From assembly GCF_900142475.1 (NCBI RefSeq), contig NZ_FRAY01000003.1, positions 496,001 to 560,000 of the forward strand: a DNA stretch of 64,000 nucleotides. Reading direction: 5' to 3'. Source of the stretch: Fibrobacter sp. UWH4. Its GTDB lineage: Bacteria > Fibrobacterota > Fibrobacteria > Fibrobacterales > Fibrobacteraceae. The position numbers and the translations under genes were made by a program. This document shows, piece by piece, positions 9,721 through 46,026 of this stretch; position 1 is the stretch's first letter; each line of letters opens with the position of its first letter. The notes under the pieces are model-generated. The model searched no databases. It was not told the origin of the DNA and saw nothing but the letters and a program-made list of their open reading frames with translations.

Positions 9721-11076
9721 ATGATTACCGACGAACTTGCAAGCATCAAAAAACGAATCCTTGATTATGGTTTCAAGCGCCTGCTGCTTGCAGTTTCGGG
9801 CGGTCTGGATTCTATTTGCCTCGCGCATTATTTCATTGCAAACCGCGAAGCGCTTGGCATCGAATGGTTGGGAATCGCACATGTGCATCACGGGCTGCGG
9901 GTCGGAACAGCCGACCGCGACGCCGCATTTGTGGAAGCTTTCGCGCGCAAGTATAACGTTCCATTTTTCTTGAAGAAATTGGATGGCGAATCGCTGAAAA
10001 ATGCAGAAGGCTCGCTGGAAGAAAACGCACGAGACGCCAGGTACAAAGCGCTGGTCGAGATTGCTCTGGATCCTATCGCCTCTGCGAGGCTCCAGGATGA
10101 CACACTCCACACAGCACACTCCACACAGCACACCCCACACCTCAAAGGGAGCGAAGCGACCGACCCCATACCCCATACCACAAAGCAACCGAAGGTTGCG
10201 GCCCCACACCTCAAAGCAGCCGAAGGCTGCGACCTCACACCTCATCCCTCACTTGTCATTGTCACGGCGCATCATGCAGGCGACCAGGCAGAAACCATGT
10301 ACATGCGCCTCCGCCGCGGCACAACCCTCGCCGGCCTACGCGGGATTCAAGAAGTTCGCGTTCTAGACGAAGCCTCCCATACCCCAAAGCAACCGAAGGT
10401 TGCGACCCCATACCTCAAAGGGAGCGAAGCGACCGACCCCACACCCCATACCCCATCTCTCTATCGGCCCTTCCTTTCCGTCACCCGCGAAGACCTCCTC
10501 GCTTACGCCCGCGAGAATAATCTTGAGTGGTGCGAAGACGAGAGCAATTCCGATACCAAATTCGCAAGGAACTTTATCCGGCACGAAGCGCTCCCCCATT
10601 TAGAACGGAACTGTCCGGGGGCTACACGGCAACTTTGCCGGATTGCAGAACTTGCCGATAAGGCGTATGCGAAAGTGATGGAAAAATGCAACACGATGTT
10701 TCAAGAGACCCTTCCCCTGAAACAAGTTCAGGGTCAGGGTGACACGGCTCCATTCTCACACCTCAAAGGGAGCGAAGCGACCGACCTCACACCTCATACC
10801 ATCATCGCTTTGAACAAGAAGGCTCTCCGCAAAATTTTTCTCTCCCACGCAGACGCAGACCTTTCCGAAATGTTCCGTTTGTGGCTTTCGGAACTGGGAT
10901 TCCGCTTTCCAATAGGTTTCTTTTACAGCCAAACGGAGCCCGCCCATGTTAAAATTCCCGTACGCTCCGCTTACCGCAAGCGTTCTATCGTCAAAAAGGC
11001 CTCAACCGTCTTGGTTTGCGAATTTGAAGATGTTCAGACAGCGTCAAAATTTGTATCTTGCGGAATGAAAGAATAA
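9721..11076 (+). CDS. tilS: tRNA(Ile)-lysidine synthase with in-frame repeat insertions
   Basis: Attaches lysine to C34 of tRNA-Ile(CAU), an essential step for AUA decoding. The N-terminal PP-loop ATPase shows LAVSGGLDSICLAHYF, HVHHGLR, AREDARYKAL-like ENARDARYKAL, TAHHAGDQAETMYMRLRRGT and EDESNSDTKFARNFIRHEALP. Three low-complexity inserts interrupt it: about residues 116-176 (between ARDARYKAL and LVIVTAHHAGDQ), 218-248 (before YRPFLSVTREDLL) and 328-359. Each contains the peptide HLKGSEATDxxPHT or a close copy and is coded by dispersed repeat DNA. Without them the protein would be roughly 330 residues. The frame stays open and the motifs are intact, so it is probably functional. Confidence 0.93.
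   Translation: MITDELASIKKRILDYGFKRLLLAVSGGLDSICLAHYFIANREALGIEWLGIAHVHHGLRVGTADRDAAFVEAFARKYNVPFFLKKLDGESLKNAEGSLEENARDARYKALVEIALDPIASARLQDDTLHTAHSTQHTPHLKGSEATDPIPHTTKQPKVAAPHLKAAEGCDLTPHPSLVIVTAHHAGDQAETMYMRLRRGTTLAGLRGIQEVRVLDEASHTPKQPKVATPYLKGSEATDPTPHTPSLYRPFLSVTREDLLAYARENNLEWCEDESNSDTKFARNFIRHEALPHLERNCPGATRQLCRIAELADKAYAKVMEKCNTMFQETLPLKQVQGQGDTAPFSHLKGSEATDLTPHTIIALNKKALRKIFLSHADADLSEMFRLWLSELGFRFPIGFFYSQTEPAHVKIPVRSAYRKRSIVKKASTVLVCEFEDVQTASKFVSCGMKE
10066..10255. repeat. Repeat cluster 1 inside tilS
   Basis: First comes a half copy of the 89-bp hairpin element (CTGGATCC ... GGCTCCAGGATGAC, 10066-10101). Then two tandem 14-base units CACTCCACACAGCA, then CCTCAAAG-hairpin-GACC units whose cores are GGAGCGAAGCGACC, GCAACCGAAGGTTGC and GCAGCCGAAGGCTGC. 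All are in frame. Confidence 0.85.
10372..10462. repeat. Repeat cluster 2 inside tilS
   Basis: Two CAAAG-hairpin-GACC units, with cores GCAACCGAAGGTTGC and GGAGCGAAGCGACC, separated by CCCATACCTCAAAG and followed by tandem ACCCCATACCCCAT. In frame with tilS. Confidence 0.85.
10703..10798. repeat. Repeat cluster 3 inside tilS
   Basis: A palindromic CCCTGAAACAAGTTCAGGG motif followed by CACCTCAAAGGGAGCGAAGC and ACCTCACACCTCAT. In frame with tilS, in the linker between its catalytic and C-terminal parts. Confidence 0.8.
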
Positions 11077-16259: not shown

Positions 16260-16287
16260 TTCCAATAGAAATTTTGTGACATCACCT

Positions 16288-16312
16288 TGTCGCCTAGAGA
16301 GGCGACATTCTT
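16288..16312 (+). terminator. Probable terminator of the ftsH-cdaA operon
   Basis: TGTCGCC (16288-16294), loop TAGAGA, GGCGACA (16301-16307), then TTCTTTCT. It lies 29 bases after the stop codon of the SUMF1-like gene. Confidence 0.65.
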
Positions 16313-16360
16313 TCTGCTGCGTCATTGATCGCCGCAAAGCAATGAACCGTTTTTAGCTGA

Positions 16361-16840
16361 GTCATCCTGGAGCCTCAGAGAGGCGGCGGGATCCAGAAGA
16401 AGCATTTTTCGATGGATTCCCTCCCTCGCTACGCTCAGTCGAGGATGACGCAGGGTGCACGCTCAGCCGCGTCAGAAGCCGAAAAGTAAAGAACCTCTTT
16501 CAACAGAGTCATCCTGGAGCCTCGGATAGGCGACGGGATCCAGAAGAAGCATTTTTCGATGGATCCCCTCCCTCGCTACGCTCAGTCGAGGATGACGCAG
16601 GGTGCGAACTCAGTCGAGGATGACGTGGGGTGCGCGCTCAGCCGCGTCAGGAGCCTAAAAGTAAAGAACCTCTTTCAGCAGAGTCATCCTGGAGCCTCGG
16701 AGAGGCGACGGGATCCAGAAGAAGCATTCTTCGATGGATCCCCTCCCTCGCTACGCTCAGTCGAGGATGACGCAGGGTGCGCGCTCAGTCGAGGATAACG
16801 CGGGGAGTGCACTCAGTCGAGGATGACGAGAAACGGCATA
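16361..16840. repeat. Three 89-bp hairpin elements in a 480-bp gene-free array
   Basis: Copies at 16361-16449, 16508-16596 and 16683-16771 are each exactly 89 bp. They start GTCATCCTGGAGCCTC and end CGAGGATGAC, an 8-bp perfect terminal inverted repeat. Inside, GGGATCCA pairs with TGGATCCC in copies 2 and 3, and GAAGAA pairs with TTCTTC around GCA in copy 3, so each can fold into one long hairpin. Spacers share GCGCTCAGCCGCGTCAG and AAGTAAAGAACCTCTTTCA, so the larger repeat unit is 147-175 bp. Extra half motifs CTCAGTCGAGGATGAC follow at 16604-16619, 16784-16798 (with one change) and 16812-16828. No gene is seen from 16260 to 16862. Confidence 0.92.
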
Positions 16841-24361: not shown

Positions 24362-26215
24362 ATGTTCACCTACCGCTACAGAGAACTTTCCGTCGCCCTT
24401 GCCAAGAAAGGGGAATACCGAGCTGCACTCGCCCGCGAACTCCGCTTGCACCCCGAAGAAATTTTCAACTTGCAGGTGGAGCGTTTCTCGCTGGATTGCC
24501 GCCGGAAAGGCGACCCCAAGTGGTCTTACAATGTGATTTTCGACTTGAAGCGCGAAGTCCGCGCCACGGGGAATCACGCCAAGGGACTTGTAGCGGCAAC
24601 GCGTGACAAGGAATCTCTTGAAAGCGACCCGCAAAAAAATAGTGTCGCGATGCCAGGGCATATCGACGTGATTGGCGCGGGTCCGAGCGGACTTTGGGCA
24701 GCCTTACATTTGCTGCGGAAAGGTTTTGCGGTAGACCTGTACGAACAGGGCAAATGCGTCGAAGAAAGATTCCGCGACATTAGGCGTTTTTTTGTAGACC
24801 GCAAGTTTAACGCTTACAGCAATGTTCTTTTTGGCGAAGGCGGTGCGGGGGCCTTTAGCGATGGAAAGCTGAATACCCGCACCCGGAACCTGTTCACAGA
24901 ACAGGTTCTACACGACATGGTCGAATTTGGAGTCGACGAATCGGTCGTGACCTTCGCCAAGCCGCATATCGGCACGGACCGCCTCGTTTTATTGCTGCGG
25001 AAAATGCGCGCAGAAATAGAAAGGCTCGGCGGCAAGATTCATTTTAGCACAGCGCTTGAAGACATCGAAATTAGGCAAGGGAAAATAACCGCTATTAAAT
25101 TGAGGAATGTCATTCTGGAGCGAGGCTATGGCCGACCGATAGAATCCATTGCCCCAATCACAAGAGTTAATCCGAGTGAAACAAGGCCGACTTCCGCAAC
25201 GTCATCCAGGAGCGAATCAAGGCAGTCTTCCGCGACGTCATCCTGGAACGAAACGAAGCTGTCTTCCGCAACGTCATCCTGGAGCGAATCAAATCAGTCT
25301 TCCGCAACGTCATCCTGGAACGAAACGAAGTGTAGTGACGGGATCCAGTGCAGCGTTTATACAGCATCATCGAATTCCTACTGGAAACCCTGCGAAGCGC
25401 TGGTGCTCGCCGTCGGGCATTCTGCCCGGAGCATTTACGAAATGCTCCACGCCCGTGGCGTCGCACTCGAAAGCAAGGCTTTTGCCATGGGCGTGCGCGT
25501 CGAGCACCCGCAAGCACTCATCAACATGCGCCAGCTCGGCCTGAATGTAGATACCAAGCTCACAGGGTCCGCCGAATATTTTCTCGCCACCCCGACACTG
25601 AATAAAACCAGCAGCGCCTACAGTTTCTGCATGTGCCCGGGTGGCGTCCTGGTGCCCTGCGCCTCGGAACCCGGGACCCTCGCCACCAACGGCATGAGCT
25701 ACAGCCGCCGCAACGGGCCTTTTGCAAATGGGGCAATCGCCGTGCCCATTGCGGCAAGCGACAATCTCTTTGGCGGGCACGAATTCCAGCGTAAAATCGA
25801 AAGCGACGCCTACGCGGTCGGCGGCAAGAACTACGCCGCTCCAGCCCAAAGCATCAAGGCGTTCCTCGCCCACCGCGAAGACAAATCGCTCCCGAAATCC
25901 ACCTACCCCTGCGGACTCGTACAGAGCAATCTCTGGGATTGGCTAGACAAGACCATTTGCAAGAGCCTCGCCGAAGGATTCCAAAATTTCGACAAGAAAA
26001 TTCCCGGATTCATCGAAGAAGGCCTGATTGTCGCCCCCGAAACACGCACCAGCAGCCCGCTGCGCATGAGCCGCAACAACGAAACACTCGAAAGTGTGAA
26101 TACCCGCGGCCTGTTTGTGCTCGGAGAAGGCGCCGGGTATTCCGGAGGAATTGTCACCAGCGCTGCCGACGGCGTTCGCCTCGCCCACTACGCGAAAAAG
26201 GATAAATTGGTATGA
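24362..26215 (+). CDS. FAD-dependent oxidoreductase (COG2509 type) with in-frame repeat insertion
   Basis: The start at 24362 (MFTYRYREL) is chosen because an ATG at 24329 lies inside the terminator. The 617 residues show an N-terminal domain, the dinucleotide-binding GAGPSGLWAALHLLRKG near residue 103, YEQGKCVEERFRDI, FGEGGAGAFSDGKLNTRTRN, LAVGHSARSIYEML, FCMCPGGVLVP and C-terminal GLFVLGEGAGYSGGIVTSAADG, all typical of this uncharacterised dehydrogenase family. About 80 residues (248-330) between VTAIKL and PCEALVLAVGHSAR are Ser/Thr-rich repeats (SATSSWNETK, SATSSWSESN) coded by tandem dispersed repeats. Flanking motifs are intact. Substrate unknown. Confidence 0.88.
   Translation: MFTYRYRELSVALAKKGEYRAALARELRLHPEEIFNLQVERFSLDCRRKGDPKWSYNVIFDLKREVRATGNHAKGLVAATRDKESLESDPQKNSVAMPGHIDVIGAGPSGLWAALHLLRKGFAVDLYEQGKCVEERFRDIRRFFVDRKFNAYSNVLFGEGGAGAFSDGKLNTRTRNLFTEQVLHDMVEFGVDESVVTFAKPHIGTDRLVLLLRKMRAEIERLGGKIHFSTALEDIEIRQGKITAIKLRNVILERGYGRPIESIAPITRVNPSETRPTSATSSRSESRQSSATSSWNETKLSSATSSWSESNQSSATSSWNETKCSDGIQCSVYTASSNSYWKPCEALVLAVGHSARSIYEMLHARGVALESKAFAMGVRVEHPQALINMRQLGLNVDTKLTGSAEYFLATPTLNKTSSAYSFCMCPGGVLVPCASEPGTLATNGMSYSRRNGPFANGAIAVPIAASDNLFGGHEFQRKIESDAYAVGGKNYAAPAQSIKAFLAHREDKSLPKSTYPCGLVQSNLWDWLDKTICKSLAEGFQNFDKKIPGFIEEGLIVAPETRTSSPLRMSRNNETLESVNTRGLFVLGEGAGYSGGIVTSAADGVRLAHYAKKDKLV
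25104..25345. repeat. Tandem array of hairpin-element fragments inside the oxidoreductase gene
   Basis: Starts with GTCATTCTGGAGCGAGGC, a half of the 89-bp element, then four units of about 39 bp each containing CTTCCGCAACGTCATCCTGG followed by AGCGAATCAA or AACGAAACGAA, and ends GACGGGATCCAG. The array is read in frame. Confidence 0.85.
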
Positions 26216-26327: not shown

Positions 26328-27413
26328 ATGATTACTCGCTTCATTGACCGCAATTTTGCTAACATGCGCCTCGACCGTTTTTTGCGCAAGGCATTCCCCG
26401 ACGAATCGCTGTCGGTCTTTTTCGCCGTCATCCGCAAGAAGAAAGTCCGCGTGAACGGCGTCGTTGGTAAAGCGAACCAGATGCTGCAGGAAGGTGATAC
26501 CGTCTGCATCTACGAGAATTTCAAGAGCGTCGAAAACAATTCGGATTTCGGAATTCAGAATTCAGAAACCAAAGACATCGTTGCGAGTTCCGAAGGAACG
26601 AAGCAACCCAGCACCGGTTTTGCAAAAGCAAAGTCCACCTGGGGCAAAACAGACGAGAGACTAAAGACGAGAGACGAAAGGAACGCTTCTTGGGGTGCCA
26701 AGGAACTCGACATTGTCATCCAGACCGAAGACTATGTGGTCGTGAACAAACCCTCGGGACTTGCAAGCCAGCCGGGTTCCGGCACTCGCCCCGGCGAGAG
26801 CCTCGTGGAATACCTATGGGAATGGGGCCGCCGCGAAGGACTTGACTTCAAGCCCACCATCGCCCACCGCCTCGACCAAGAAACTTCGGGCATGATTATC
26901 GCCGCCCTCCACGGCGACACGCTCCGCGACTTTACTCGCATGATTCGCGAACACGAAGTTGACAAGTTCTATTACGCGCTCGTCAAAGGCAACCTCAAAA
27001 AAGACAAGGGAACCATAAACGAAACGCTCACCCGCACCGACGCCGCCAAGGGCAGCAAGATGAAGGTCGGCGAAACCGGCAAGGATGCCCAGCAGGCAAT
27101 CACCCACTACCGTGTCAAGCAGCATTACGAAGGCTACGACCTGGTAAAAATCAAGCTCGAAACGGGTCGCATGCACCAGATCCGCGCCCATTTCGCAAGC
27201 ATCGGACACCCGCTCCTCGGCGACACTCGCTACGGCGATTTTGCGCTCAACCGCGAAGTCAAAAAACAGCTCGGGCTGCACAGGCTCTTCTTACACAGCT
27301 GTCGTCTAGAATTTGTATGGCACGGCGACAAAATCGTACTCGATTGTCCGCTCCCCAAGGAACTGCAAAGCGTCGTGGACCAACTAAAGCCTATTCGCCA
27401 CGAGCACCGATAA
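26328..27413 (+). CDS. RluA-family 23S rRNA/tRNA pseudouridine synthase with in-frame repeats
   Basis: Converts specific uridines to pseudouridine in rRNA or tRNA. An S4 RNA-binding domain (residues 8-60: MRLDRFLRKAFPDESLS, KKVRVNGVVGKANQML) is followed by the catalytic domain with YVVVNKPSGLASQPGSGT, the active-site HRLDQETSGMIIAA near residue 182, KFYYALVKG, and the C-terminal LETGRMHQIRAHFASIGHPLLGDTRYG. Between the domains, residues 70-125 are low complexity and coded by three repeat types (see separate entry). Which rRNA position is modified cannot be told. No Shine-Dalgarno site is evident; the gene begins right after a repeat. Confidence 0.92.
   Translation: MITRFIDRNFANMRLDRFLRKAFPDESLSVFFAVIRKKKVRVNGVVGKANQMLQEGDTVCIYENFKSVENNSDFGIQNSETKDIVASSEGTKQPSTGFAKAKSTWGKTDERLKTRDERNASWGAKELDIVIQTEDYVVVNKPSGLASQPGSGTRPGESLVEYLWEWGRREGLDFKPTIAHRLDQETSGMIIAALHGDTLRDFTRMIREHEVDKFYYALVKGNLKKDKGTINETLTRTDAAKGSKMKVGETGKDAQQAITHYRVKQHYEGYDLVKIKLETGRMHQIRAHFASIGHPLLGDTRYGDFALNREVKKQLGLHRLFLHSCRLEFVWHGDKIVLDCPLPKELQSVVDQLKPIRHEHR
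26534..26697. repeat. Three repeat families side by side inside the pseudouridine synthase gene
   Basis: TTCGGATTTCGGAATTCAG then AATTCAG (family also at 31.4 and 55.5 kb); then a nested hairpin GTTGC-GA-GTTCC-GAA-GGAAC-GAA-GCAAC; then GACGAGAGACTAAAGACGAG and AGACGAAAGG (family also at 47.3 kb). All lie in the S4/catalytic linker and are in frame. Confidence 0.8.
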
Positions 27414-35793: not shown

Positions 35794-37083
35794 CTACAGT
35801 CTCTTAAGCACCGCAGCAGCGTGGTGGATAAAGCCCTCTTCGGTTGCAACGGCGGCAATGGCCTTCGCATTCTTCTTGATGGCCTTCTCGCTGTAGCGGA
35901 TGATGCTCATACGCTTGAGGAAGTCGTAGACTCCTAGCGGGCTGAAGAAGCGGCCCGTGCCGTTCGTCGGCAGCACATGGTTCGGACCCGCAAAATAGTC
36001 GCCCACCGGTTCGCTCGACCACGGGCCGATAAACACGGCACCCGCGTTCTCGATCTGCGCAGCCATGGATTCTGCTTCGGCGGTCATGACTTCCAAATGT
36101 TCCGGAGCAATGCGGTTCGCAATTTCAACACCGTCGAACCAATCCTTCACCACTAAGATGCGACCGAAGTTACCGAGCACCTTTTCAAGGAGTTCCTTCT
36201 TCGGGGAGTTTTCCACCTGCACATCAACGCAAGCAGAAATCATCTGGGCCGTTTCCATGTTGTCGGTAATGCAGATAGCGGCTTCAAAACCGGAACCGTG
36301 TTCCGCCTGGGAAAGCAGGTCTGCAGCGACAAAGTCAGGATCGCAGGTGTTATCGGCCATCACGAGCACTTCGCTGGGACCAGCCACCATGTCGATATCC
36401 ACGACACCGAAGACTTCCTTCTTGGCGATAGCGGCAAAGACGTTGCCCGGGCCCACAATCTTGTCGACGCGTTCCACGACGATCTTGCCCTTGGCGTCCT
36501 TGGCACCATAAGCCAAGAGACCAATCGCCTGAGCGCCACCGATGTGGTAGACTTCTTCAATGCCCAATTCCTGAAGCACGAATGCCACAGCACGGTTGAT
36601 TTCGCCCTTGATCGGGGTCACGACCACGATATCCTGAACGCCAGCCACCAGAGCCGGAACAGCGTTCATAATCACAGTGCTCGGATAAATGCCAGCACCA
36701 CCCGGCACGTAAAGACCCACGCGCTTCATGGGGCGAATGCGCTGACCGAGGACTACACCATCGGCCCCTTCCATGAGCCAGGATTCTTCCATCTGGTTCT
36801 TGTGGAAGTCGCGAACATTCTTGATAGCCTGCTTCAAGGCCTTCTGGAGTTCCTTGGGGCACTTGGCGGCAGACTTCGCGATGGCCGAAACCGGCACGCG
36901 GATGTTCTTGCCCTTCAGGCCGTCGAACTTCTGGGCGTATTCCGTCGCCTTGGCGATACCGCCCTTCTTGATGTCGGCAAGGATTTGCATCACCTTGTCA
37001 TGGATTTCTCTGGACGGAGCGACTTCGCGCCCGCAGATGCGTTCAATTTCAGCAGATTTCGGAGTAACTTTTGTAATAATCAT
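35794..37083 (-). CDS. hisD: Histidinol dehydrogenase
   Basis: Zinc enzyme that oxidises histidinol to histidine with two NAD. Starting at 37083 gives 429 residues, the normal length; a start at 37107 would lie at or before the expected transcription start of the TATCTTTG box (37111-37118). Motifs: GLYVPGGAGIYPSTVIMNAVPA, VVERVDKIVGPGNVFAAIAKKEVFGVVDIDMVAGPSEV (split), LSQAEHG, EHLEVMTAEAESMA, FIGPWSSEPVGDYFAGPNHVLPT. The first codons differ from a 58-bp exact copy of its 5' end at 38301-38358, which directly follows cimA, so hisD was probably cimA's neighbour before an insertion. It now has a new promoter region. Confidence 0.96.
   Translation of the reverse strand: MIITKVTPKSAEIERICGREVAPSREIHDKVMQILADIKKGGIAKATEYAQKFDGLKGKNIRVPVSAIAKSAAKCPKELQKALKQAIKNVRDFHKNQMEESWLMEGADGVVLGQRIRPMKRVGLYVPGGAGIYPSTVIMNAVPALVAGVQDIVVVTPIKGEINRAVAFVLQELGIEEVYHIGGAQAIGLLAYGAKDAKGKIVVERVDKIVGPGNVFAAIAKKEVFGVVDIDMVAGPSEVLVMADNTCDPDFVAADLLSQAEHGSGFEAAICITDNMETAQMISACVDVQVENSPKKELLEKVLGNFGRILVVKDWFDGVEIANRIAPEHLEVMTAEAESMAAQIENAGAVFIGPWSSEPVGDYFAGPNHVLPTNGTGRFFSPLGVYDFLKRMSIIRYSEKAIKKNAKAIAAVATEEGFIHHAAAVLKRL
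37020..37077. repeat. 58-bp direct repeat, copy 1 (inside hisD)
   Basis: Identical base for base to 38301-38358. It encodes hisD codons from ITKVTPKS to ICGREV. The two copies bracket an insertion of about 1.2 kb. Confidence 0.95.
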
Positions 37084-38300: not shown

Positions 38301-38364
38301 CGACTTCGCGCCCGCAGATGCGTTCAATTTCAGCAGATTTCGGAGTAACTTTTGTAATTTGCAT
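38284..38364 (-). pseudogene. hisD 5' remnant
   Basis: ATG at 38364, three bases after the cimA stop codon and behind AAGGA at the cimA end, reads MQITKVTPKSAEIERICGRE then leaves homology at 38300 and stops (26 codons). It shows the ancestral cimA-hisD junction: the original hisD start and ribosome site are still here while the intact gene is 1.28 kb away. Confidence 0.9.
38301..38358. repeat. 58-bp direct repeat, copy 2 (after cimA)
   Basis: Exact copy of 37020-37077, at 1281-bp offset. This copy keeps the ancestral upstream context. Confidence 0.95.
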
Positions 38365-45225: not shown

Positions 45226-46026
45226 CTACTCAGGAATCACATCCATATCGAAAATTCGCATCACTCCCGAGGACCGAGAATCAATGTCATTTTGGAAATT
45301 GAGCAGCGTTGCATAAGTGTAAGCGGAATCATTGTCCACAGCAAAGTCAATTTGGGAGAGACACCTGTGCCTCTGTGCATTCGTGTAATCGAAAGTTGCT
45401 TTTACGTAGACCGTATCACCAGACACACCAACTTCGAAATTTTTTGCAGCCACACCAGCAGTAAGTTCTAGCCACTTAATAGTAAAGCCTGTACGCTCGG
45501 TACCGACATACCTATAAGCTTCCGGCAGCGGGTAATCGACATCATCCCCAGAAGATTCTAGCAACGAGTCTTCTGCTAATAGCACACATCGAATGTAAAC
45601 GTCTGTTACCAACTGACGTGAACGATCTTCAATCTCAGATGAAGAACTCTCCGGCAATACATCTGGATATTCAGAAGAACTAGATTCCTCAAGATTTTTC
45701 GAGTCGTTCATCGAAGAAGAACTCTCCGGCAAAAGATTAGGATCAGAATCTTGTATTGATGAACTGGAAACAAACGAAATGTTATTGTCTTCGCGTGCAC
45801 TCGATGAACTAAGCGTCCCCGCATTCTGCGAAGAACTGGTTAAAACAACATCAATATTTTCGATCGAAGAACTGCTTAAAACAACATCAGTATTTTCGAT
45901 CGAAGAACTGCTGATTTCAGCAATTGAATTCGGGTCGATGGTCCCACCCGCAACATCGTTGCTGGAGCAGGCAGTCCAAATTACCGCAACGACGGGGCTT
46001 ATGGCTAAAGCAATTTTCTTAAGCAT
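45226..46026 (-). CDS. Lipoprotein with Ser-rich repeats, partner of the TIGR02147 gene
   Basis: A 266-residue protein, lipobox WTAC (Cys20). Residues 25-125 are Ser-rich, with a duplicated unit SSSIENTDVVLSSS / SSSIENIDVVLTSS coded by near-identical 45-bp DNA at 45838-45925. The C-terminal domain (about 130-250) resembles the repeated domain of the lipoprotein at 43959-45011: VYIRCVLLAED, FTIKWLELTAGVAAKNFEVGVSGDTVYVKATFDY, RCLSQIDFAV. Its ATG overlaps the stop of the TIGR02147 gene (ATGCTTAA), so the regulator and lipoprotein are translated together. Surface role inferred; function unknown. Confidence 0.75.
   Translation of the reverse strand: MLKKIALAISPVVAVIWTACSSNDVAGGTIDPNSIAEISSSSIENTDVVLSSSSIENIDVVLTSSSQNAGTLSSSSAREDNNISFVSSSSIQDSDPNLLPESSSSMNDSKNLEESSSSEYPDVLPESSSSEIEDRSRQLVTDVYIRCVLLAEDSLLESSGDDVDYPLPEAYRYVGTERTGFTIKWLELTAGVAAKNFEVGVSGDTVYVKATFDYTNAQRHRCLSQIDFAVDNDSAYTYATLLNFQNDIDSRSSGVMRIFDMDVIPE

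Follow-up and report, generated by a model that had tools for sequence, protein, structure and literature searches.

The CGTC-tagged REPs, which include dRS3 of Neisseria and RPE-4 and RPE-6 of Rickettsia, have been described by Di Nocera et al. (2013, PMC3733652). The same study reported CGTC and GTAG REPs in frame in genes, among them truB of several other bacteria and DNA-repair genes, and described recB of Xanthomonas campestris and X. oryzae as holding different REPs at nearly the same position. Moreover, palindromic elements of Rickettsia have been documented within protein-coding genes (Ogata et al. 2000, 2002; described in PMC10969869 and PMC1950309). PMC3733652 makes no mention of Fibrobacter, and a literature search on palindromic repeats of Fibrobacter returned nothing on the topic.

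In the present study, in-frame repeats in the gene of an FAD-dependent protein of Fibrobacter sp. UWH4 were analyzed within the window (the whole stretch of 64,000 nucleotides of DNA; Table 1) and across related genomes. As in Rickettsia, palindromic repeats were found in frame in unrelated conserved genes and appeared to be compatible with folding. However, the Rickettsia element of the RPE-1 type is about 150 bp long and encodes a conserved peptide, whereas the Fibrobacter element is 31-41 bp long and can be read in any of five frames; furthermore, unlike in Rickettsia, the families that fill the Fibrobacter loop differ from species to species. As at Xanthomonas recB, different REPs occupy one gene site in different species, but the Fibrobacter loop holds at least four kinds of repeat within the genus, a pattern that is also seen in TilS. 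In-frame palindromic insertion is already known, and what seems to be new is that the same loops are repeatedly occupied by unrelated families within one genus. It is very probable that a REP-like insertion was tolerated in a permissive loop of the enzyme and was followed by local tandem duplication.

Results

Table 1. Coordinates of the flavoprotein gene, the parts of its variable loop and related copies of the element in the window.
Feature	Position	Strand	Remarks
Intergenic tandem array of the element, head-to-head pairs, period 147/175 bp	16287..16828	.	Element pairs at 16360..16828, the "89-bp" form
Element inside tilS (9721-11076), read LDPIASARLQDD	10066..10102	-	Covariance-model match
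FAD-dependent protein gene, 617 aa	24362..26215	+	PF21688 C-terminal domain; relative of PDB 3nlc (VP0956)
Variable loop, 288 nt / 96 aa	25103..25390	+	Ortholog alignment; no other site of the flavoprotein has indels nearly as large
First, degenerate hairpin element TGTCATTCTGGAG..GATAGAATCCA, ~42 bp, read NVILERGYGRPIES	25108..25149	+	Common to the nearest relative, L110
Spacer without assigned repeat	25150..25177	+	Sequence
Four tandem 36-bp units, 72-bp ABAB order	25178..25321	+	Each is a hairpin left half plus spacer
Terminal intact hairpin element CGTCATCCTGGAACGAAACGAAGTGTAGTGACGGGATCCAG, read TSSWNETKCSDGIQ	25308..25348	+	Left half overlaps last unit
Residual 3' part of the loop (..SSNSYWKP)	25349..25390	+	End alignable with undecorated orthologs

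A preliminary description of this DNA reported tandem repeats in frame in the FAD gene, read as SATSSWNE or SATSSWSE, and these were present and above chance both by Tandem Repeats Finder (scores of 209 at period 36 and 252 at period 72 for 25174-25330) and by a covariance model. They lie between the strands GKITAIKL and CEALVLAVGHSAR, the former of which had been given as VTAIKL where the sequence reads ITAIKL. The count of four units stood, but the unit length of about 39 bp did not, the actual period being 36 bp or 12 codons; the motif CAACGTCATCCTGG ascribed to the units was exact in two of the four and one base off in the other two. The span of 25104-25345 was nearly right, except that the array closes with an intact hairpin running just past that end. 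In place of the "half 89-bp element" thought to precede the units, one complete but degenerate hairpin was found in another frame (VILERGYGRPIES), and the first element (VILER..) and the units (TSSWNE..) represent two reading frames of one element within the gene. The covariance model matched the terminal element with an E value of 3.7e-12 in the window, this copy having been in the training alignment, and the first element, a copy outside that alignment, with an E value of 8.8e-4.

The full-length structural relative of the flavoprotein, PDB 3nlc from Vibrio (Z 45.5), has no counterpart of the insert; fold matches below it, at Z of about 15-17, were taken to reflect the shared FAD-binding fold only. 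In an AlphaFold2 model built from 34 sequences (mean pLDDT 78.5), insert residues 255-335 had pLDDT below 50 and lay between strands 241-249 and 339-343, the insert being predicted to extend as a disordered segment from the turn of a beta hairpin. In the RluA-type pseudouridine synthase gene (26328-27413), two other in-frame repeats lie in the linker that joins the S4 domain to the synthase domain, one of AATTCAGAATTCAG type at 26545-26582 and AGACGAGAGACTAAAGACG at 26651-26680.

The element consists of CGTCATCCTGGA, a variable covarying stem and GGATCCAG. Twenty-five copies from the host and related genomes aligned as CGTC-ATCCTG-GA-(variable stem and loop)-GA-(CG/TA/TG)GGAT-CCAG, where the two bases before TCAT were entered as CG for the relatives' copies, so that the head at those bases is set by hand in them. 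In this alignment 92.8% of the cells pair, and changes on both sides were found in 40 cells versus 13.4 in shuffles, all of them in the inner stem, a part on which the search pattern set no constraint. Judged from these copies, the inner stem is one with compensatory changes. The strict pattern recovered 25 copies in the host genome versus none with a reversed-pattern control, and was present in 26 of 60 relatives; with an E cutoff of 0.01, the covariance model gave at least 129 matches in the host genome, only 150 of 2290 candidates having been scored. Rfam gave no match in the 64-kb window.

The stem is composed of 6 bp, a GA/GA internal loop and the variable inner stem, which is capped by a loop of about 3 bases. 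The consensus head is CGTC, which is carried by the terminal element and the array units; the first element has TGTC, and some other genome copies begin with AGTC or GGTC. CGTC-tagged REPs have unpaired CGTC, or else TGTC or CCTC, at one end. The pairs A5-U38 and U6-A37 occur in 25/25 aligned copies, in which they were built into the search pattern, and also in the first element, which the pattern did not choose. Similarly, the tail CCAG of all aligned copies was built into the pattern, and the first element, chosen otherwise, ends in CCA. The CGTC/TGTC head, the stem opening with A-T pairs, the tail fitting CCA and the many variants are like those of CGTC-tagged REPs, as are the mostly intergenic positions with some copies in frame in genes and, to judge by a search for the Y1 family, the lack of a dedicated transposase. 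CGTC-tagged REPs are predominantly head-to-head dimers, which the element may resemble in view of the head-to-head pairs in the window. The element thus has most features of CGTC-tagged REPs but not their plain stem of 8-9 bp with a loop of 4-5 bases, and it is regarded here as REP-like rather than as a proven member. Unlike the GTAG REP/RAYT system, it has no GTAG at its end, and the UWH4 genome has no Y1 transposase. The "89-bp element" placed at 16.3-16.8 kb proved to be two hairpins head to head rather than one element, and in the window such pairs were seen at 16360-16772. Two further repeats of the window were recorded: two 58-nt stretches of 100% identity, 1281 bp apart (37020-37077 and 38301-38358), and a 36-bp tandem repeat of 2.3 copies at 45829-45912, the sequence of which is unrelated to the flavoprotein units.

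For 115 of the 129 model matches, placement was determined with gene calls from a purpose-built simple codon-usage gene finder, by which 85% of the window is coding. Intergenic copies numbered 99/115, a further 5 touched or were near gene ends, and 11 were inside genes, which are strongly depleted of copies given a coding share of about 85%. The hosts of in-gene copies include tilS, the flavoprotein, truB, a MutY-like glycosylase, an amidase linker, the N-terminal region of a TonB receptor (two copies), an ABC-class ATPase, an arginase-family protein, a pectate lyase and a Fib_succ_major protein. The truB host has a TruB_C_2 match and neighbors read by eye as infB and ribF. Twelve in-gene copies are read in five frames, three forward and two reverse, and the sixth frame holds a stop in 21/21 copies. 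Because the element is read in five frames, what the copies have in common is DNA and not a peptide, as had been claimed from the tilS copy on the opposite strand; orthologs lacking the peptide or carrying unrelated repeats agree with that claim. The in-frame insert of TruB (L178:1183-2154) comprises a GAATTCGGAATTC-type repeat, read EFGIRNSEFGI, and the CATCCTGG element, and in the MutY-like HhH-GPD glycosylase (L174:734-1723) the element is read DGSRRLRLQDD just before the LPGIGA helix-hairpin-helix.

Among the orthologs of 36 congeneric genomes (one genome per species, many of them MAGs), the loop measures 6-56 aa versus 96 aa in UWH4 and is in frame in every case, and no other internal site of the flavoprotein varies comparably in length. 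It is 13-14 aa long in the close sisters G003, G005, G010, G030 and G035 and short in the outgroups too; several orthologs have no hairpin in it, and its sequence is unrelated among species. In undecorated sisters the loop starts with ACGT versus the CGTC of the element, which might be an insertion-site motif, clean filled/empty pairs being too few to bear it out. The families occupying the loop across species include dRS3-like CGTC repeats, GTCATTRCGA..GAAGCAATCCA and AGACGARAGA. GAGATTYCCGC..GCGGGAATGACA, of the GAGATTCCCGC..GCGGGAATGACA type, occurs in G014, G004 and G019 (40, 39 and 33 genome copies, respectively), with variants in G027 and G020, and presumably resembles the CGTC-1/dRS3 format in reverse. 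The loops of G001 and G006 contain DNA of the AGACGARAGACGARAGA or AGACGAGAGACGA type, with 141 and 140 genome matches for the AGACGARAGACGARAGA type. That of L115 contains GTCATTACGAACCCCGATGGGGTGAAGCAATCCA, a GTCATTACGA..GAAGCAATCCA element whose family is found in 40 of 61 genus genomes. Short tandems were observed in G008 and G033, the 14-bp GGCACGAGGCTCGG unit having two copies in G008 and one in the near-identical G013 and G031. The repeat families in the loop are dispersed in the genomes concerned. In the tree G001, G004 and G014 are very close, yet the loop of G001 differs.

The nearest relative found, L110 (LVAE01000007.1, Fibro_02), agrees at 94%/97% in the flanks and has the first element in common with UWH4, read in the same frame, with complete divergence after that. 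The same peptide held in the same frame by purifying selection had been named as the observation that would speak against insertion of mobile DNA. The frame is indeed common to L110, yet the shared element has 0 synonymous and 4 nonsynonymous differences, versus about 103 and 30 in the flanks (pN/pS 0.087; Fisher p = 0.0033 on a test resting on four substitutions). The flanks are thus under strong purifying selection and the insert seems to show none, which should be read with caution as four changes are few. The scan of genome contigs gave no second strain of the species of the window, L110 being the sole relative sharing the insert; for the flavoprotein insert, neither a target-site duplication nor an empty-site/filled-site pair of near-identical strains was found.

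TilS, to judge by its orthologs, shows the same pattern of one loop with different repeats. The loop is undecorated in G003, G005, G009, G011 and G021, being ARDARYKALQEAAENCDAIVTAHHAGDQAET in the first two, and in other species it reads LDPIASARLQDD, LDPSTPLHSAQDD, SRLRGDD, IPASAGMT or longer chains, where the repeat origin was checked by copy number for the CATCCTGG element and assigned to the others by resemblance to it. The tilS gene also contains a further repeat, ACCTCAAAGGGAGCGAAGCGACCGACCCC (read HLKGSEATDP), of which several copies lie in frame at three places, and the open frames of TilS vary in length across the genus, from about 349 to 604 aa.

Discussion

Dispersal and lineage-specific presence of the element point to mobility, which supports the earlier proposal of mobile-DNA insertion, except that the four-unit array is better regarded as local tandem duplication. 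REP-like palindromic DNA of the CGTC-tagged type would have landed in frame in the beta-hairpin turn of a conserved FAD enzyme, a turn that may tolerate nearly any stop-free, frame-keeping sequence. Selection would purge insertions elsewhere in the gene, together with all frame-shifting or stop-bearing ones, so that only the loop would keep repeats. The first element, common to L110, would have been fixed, and the loop would then have grown by lineage-specific steps; in UWH4 these may have been the arrival of a second element and tandem duplication of its left half and spacer in 36-bp (12-codon) steps, probably by slippage or unequal recombination, while in other Fibrobacter lineages this loop would have taken up repeats of other families. 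The enzyme presumably remains active with the insert. A Y1 (RAYT/IS200-type) transposase was considered as the mobilizer and rejected: the REP-associated Y1_Tnp (PF01797) is absent from the UWH4 genome, with positive search controls, and present in 20/61 genus genomes, and such an enzyme is thus not needed for the presence of the element.

The hairpins might instead be kept for a role of DNA or mRNA, such as mRNA stability, termination or chromosome organization, the coding copies being by-products or intragenic regulators. The covarying stem and the strong intergenic enrichment would suit such a role, as would the finding that 80/92 placed intergenic copies lie between co-directional or convergent genes, as for REPs (PMC3733652); however, the gaps of the window itself are also mostly co-directional, so the orientation of the copies says little. 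Within the flavoprotein gene, the first copy has degenerated and the right arm is missing from the 36-bp units, which leaves most of the array unable to form the hairpin. With hairpin-free loops in several orthologs as well, we regard this explanation of the insert as improbable.

Somewhat less credence still is given to the view that the insert is a selected protein feature, namely a Ser/Thr-rich linker or interaction segment with an adaptive number of repeats. All units do hold the 12-codon frame and the S-A-T-S-S core, with W next in most, and Ser-rich linkers of secreted proteins are another place in which the element occurs, SSSW being in keeping with the composition there. Against this view stand the unrelated loop sequences among species, the reading of the same DNA in five frames, the 4:0 ratio of nonsynonymous to synonymous changes in the element shared with L110, the predicted disorder, and the short loops of outgroups and close sisters. 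Finally, short repeats misassemble easily and the 72-bp copies are near-identical, but a collapsed or chimeric repeat or an annotation error is very hard to credit for an array of only ~145 bp whose units show 3-7 base differences among themselves, whose frame is open throughout and whose first element recurs in L110, independent assemblies having loop insertions at the same place.

Beyond tolerated insertion followed by duplication, we tentatively raise a further idea, which we think rather doubtful: permissive loops of conserved Fibrobacter housekeeping enzymes might act as "REP nests", in which a resident element attracts or recombines with more. Their content would then turn over between close species (G001 versus G004 and G014; UWH4 versus L110), driven by some enzyme or by inter-repeat recombination, and could generate length variants of TilS, TruB, the MutY-like glycosylase and the flavoprotein.

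In conclusion, these findings add a gut genus from a different phylum to the bacteria with in-frame palindromic insertions, of which Rickettsia is the best known. One enzyme loop, dozens of species and several unrelated repeat families together form a natural experiment, in which one can ask whether the insertions are neutral, at what rate they turn over and whether resident elements draw in further ones. A caution also follows: where a Fibrobacter protein has an extension peculiar to its species, that extension may be repeat DNA in translation.
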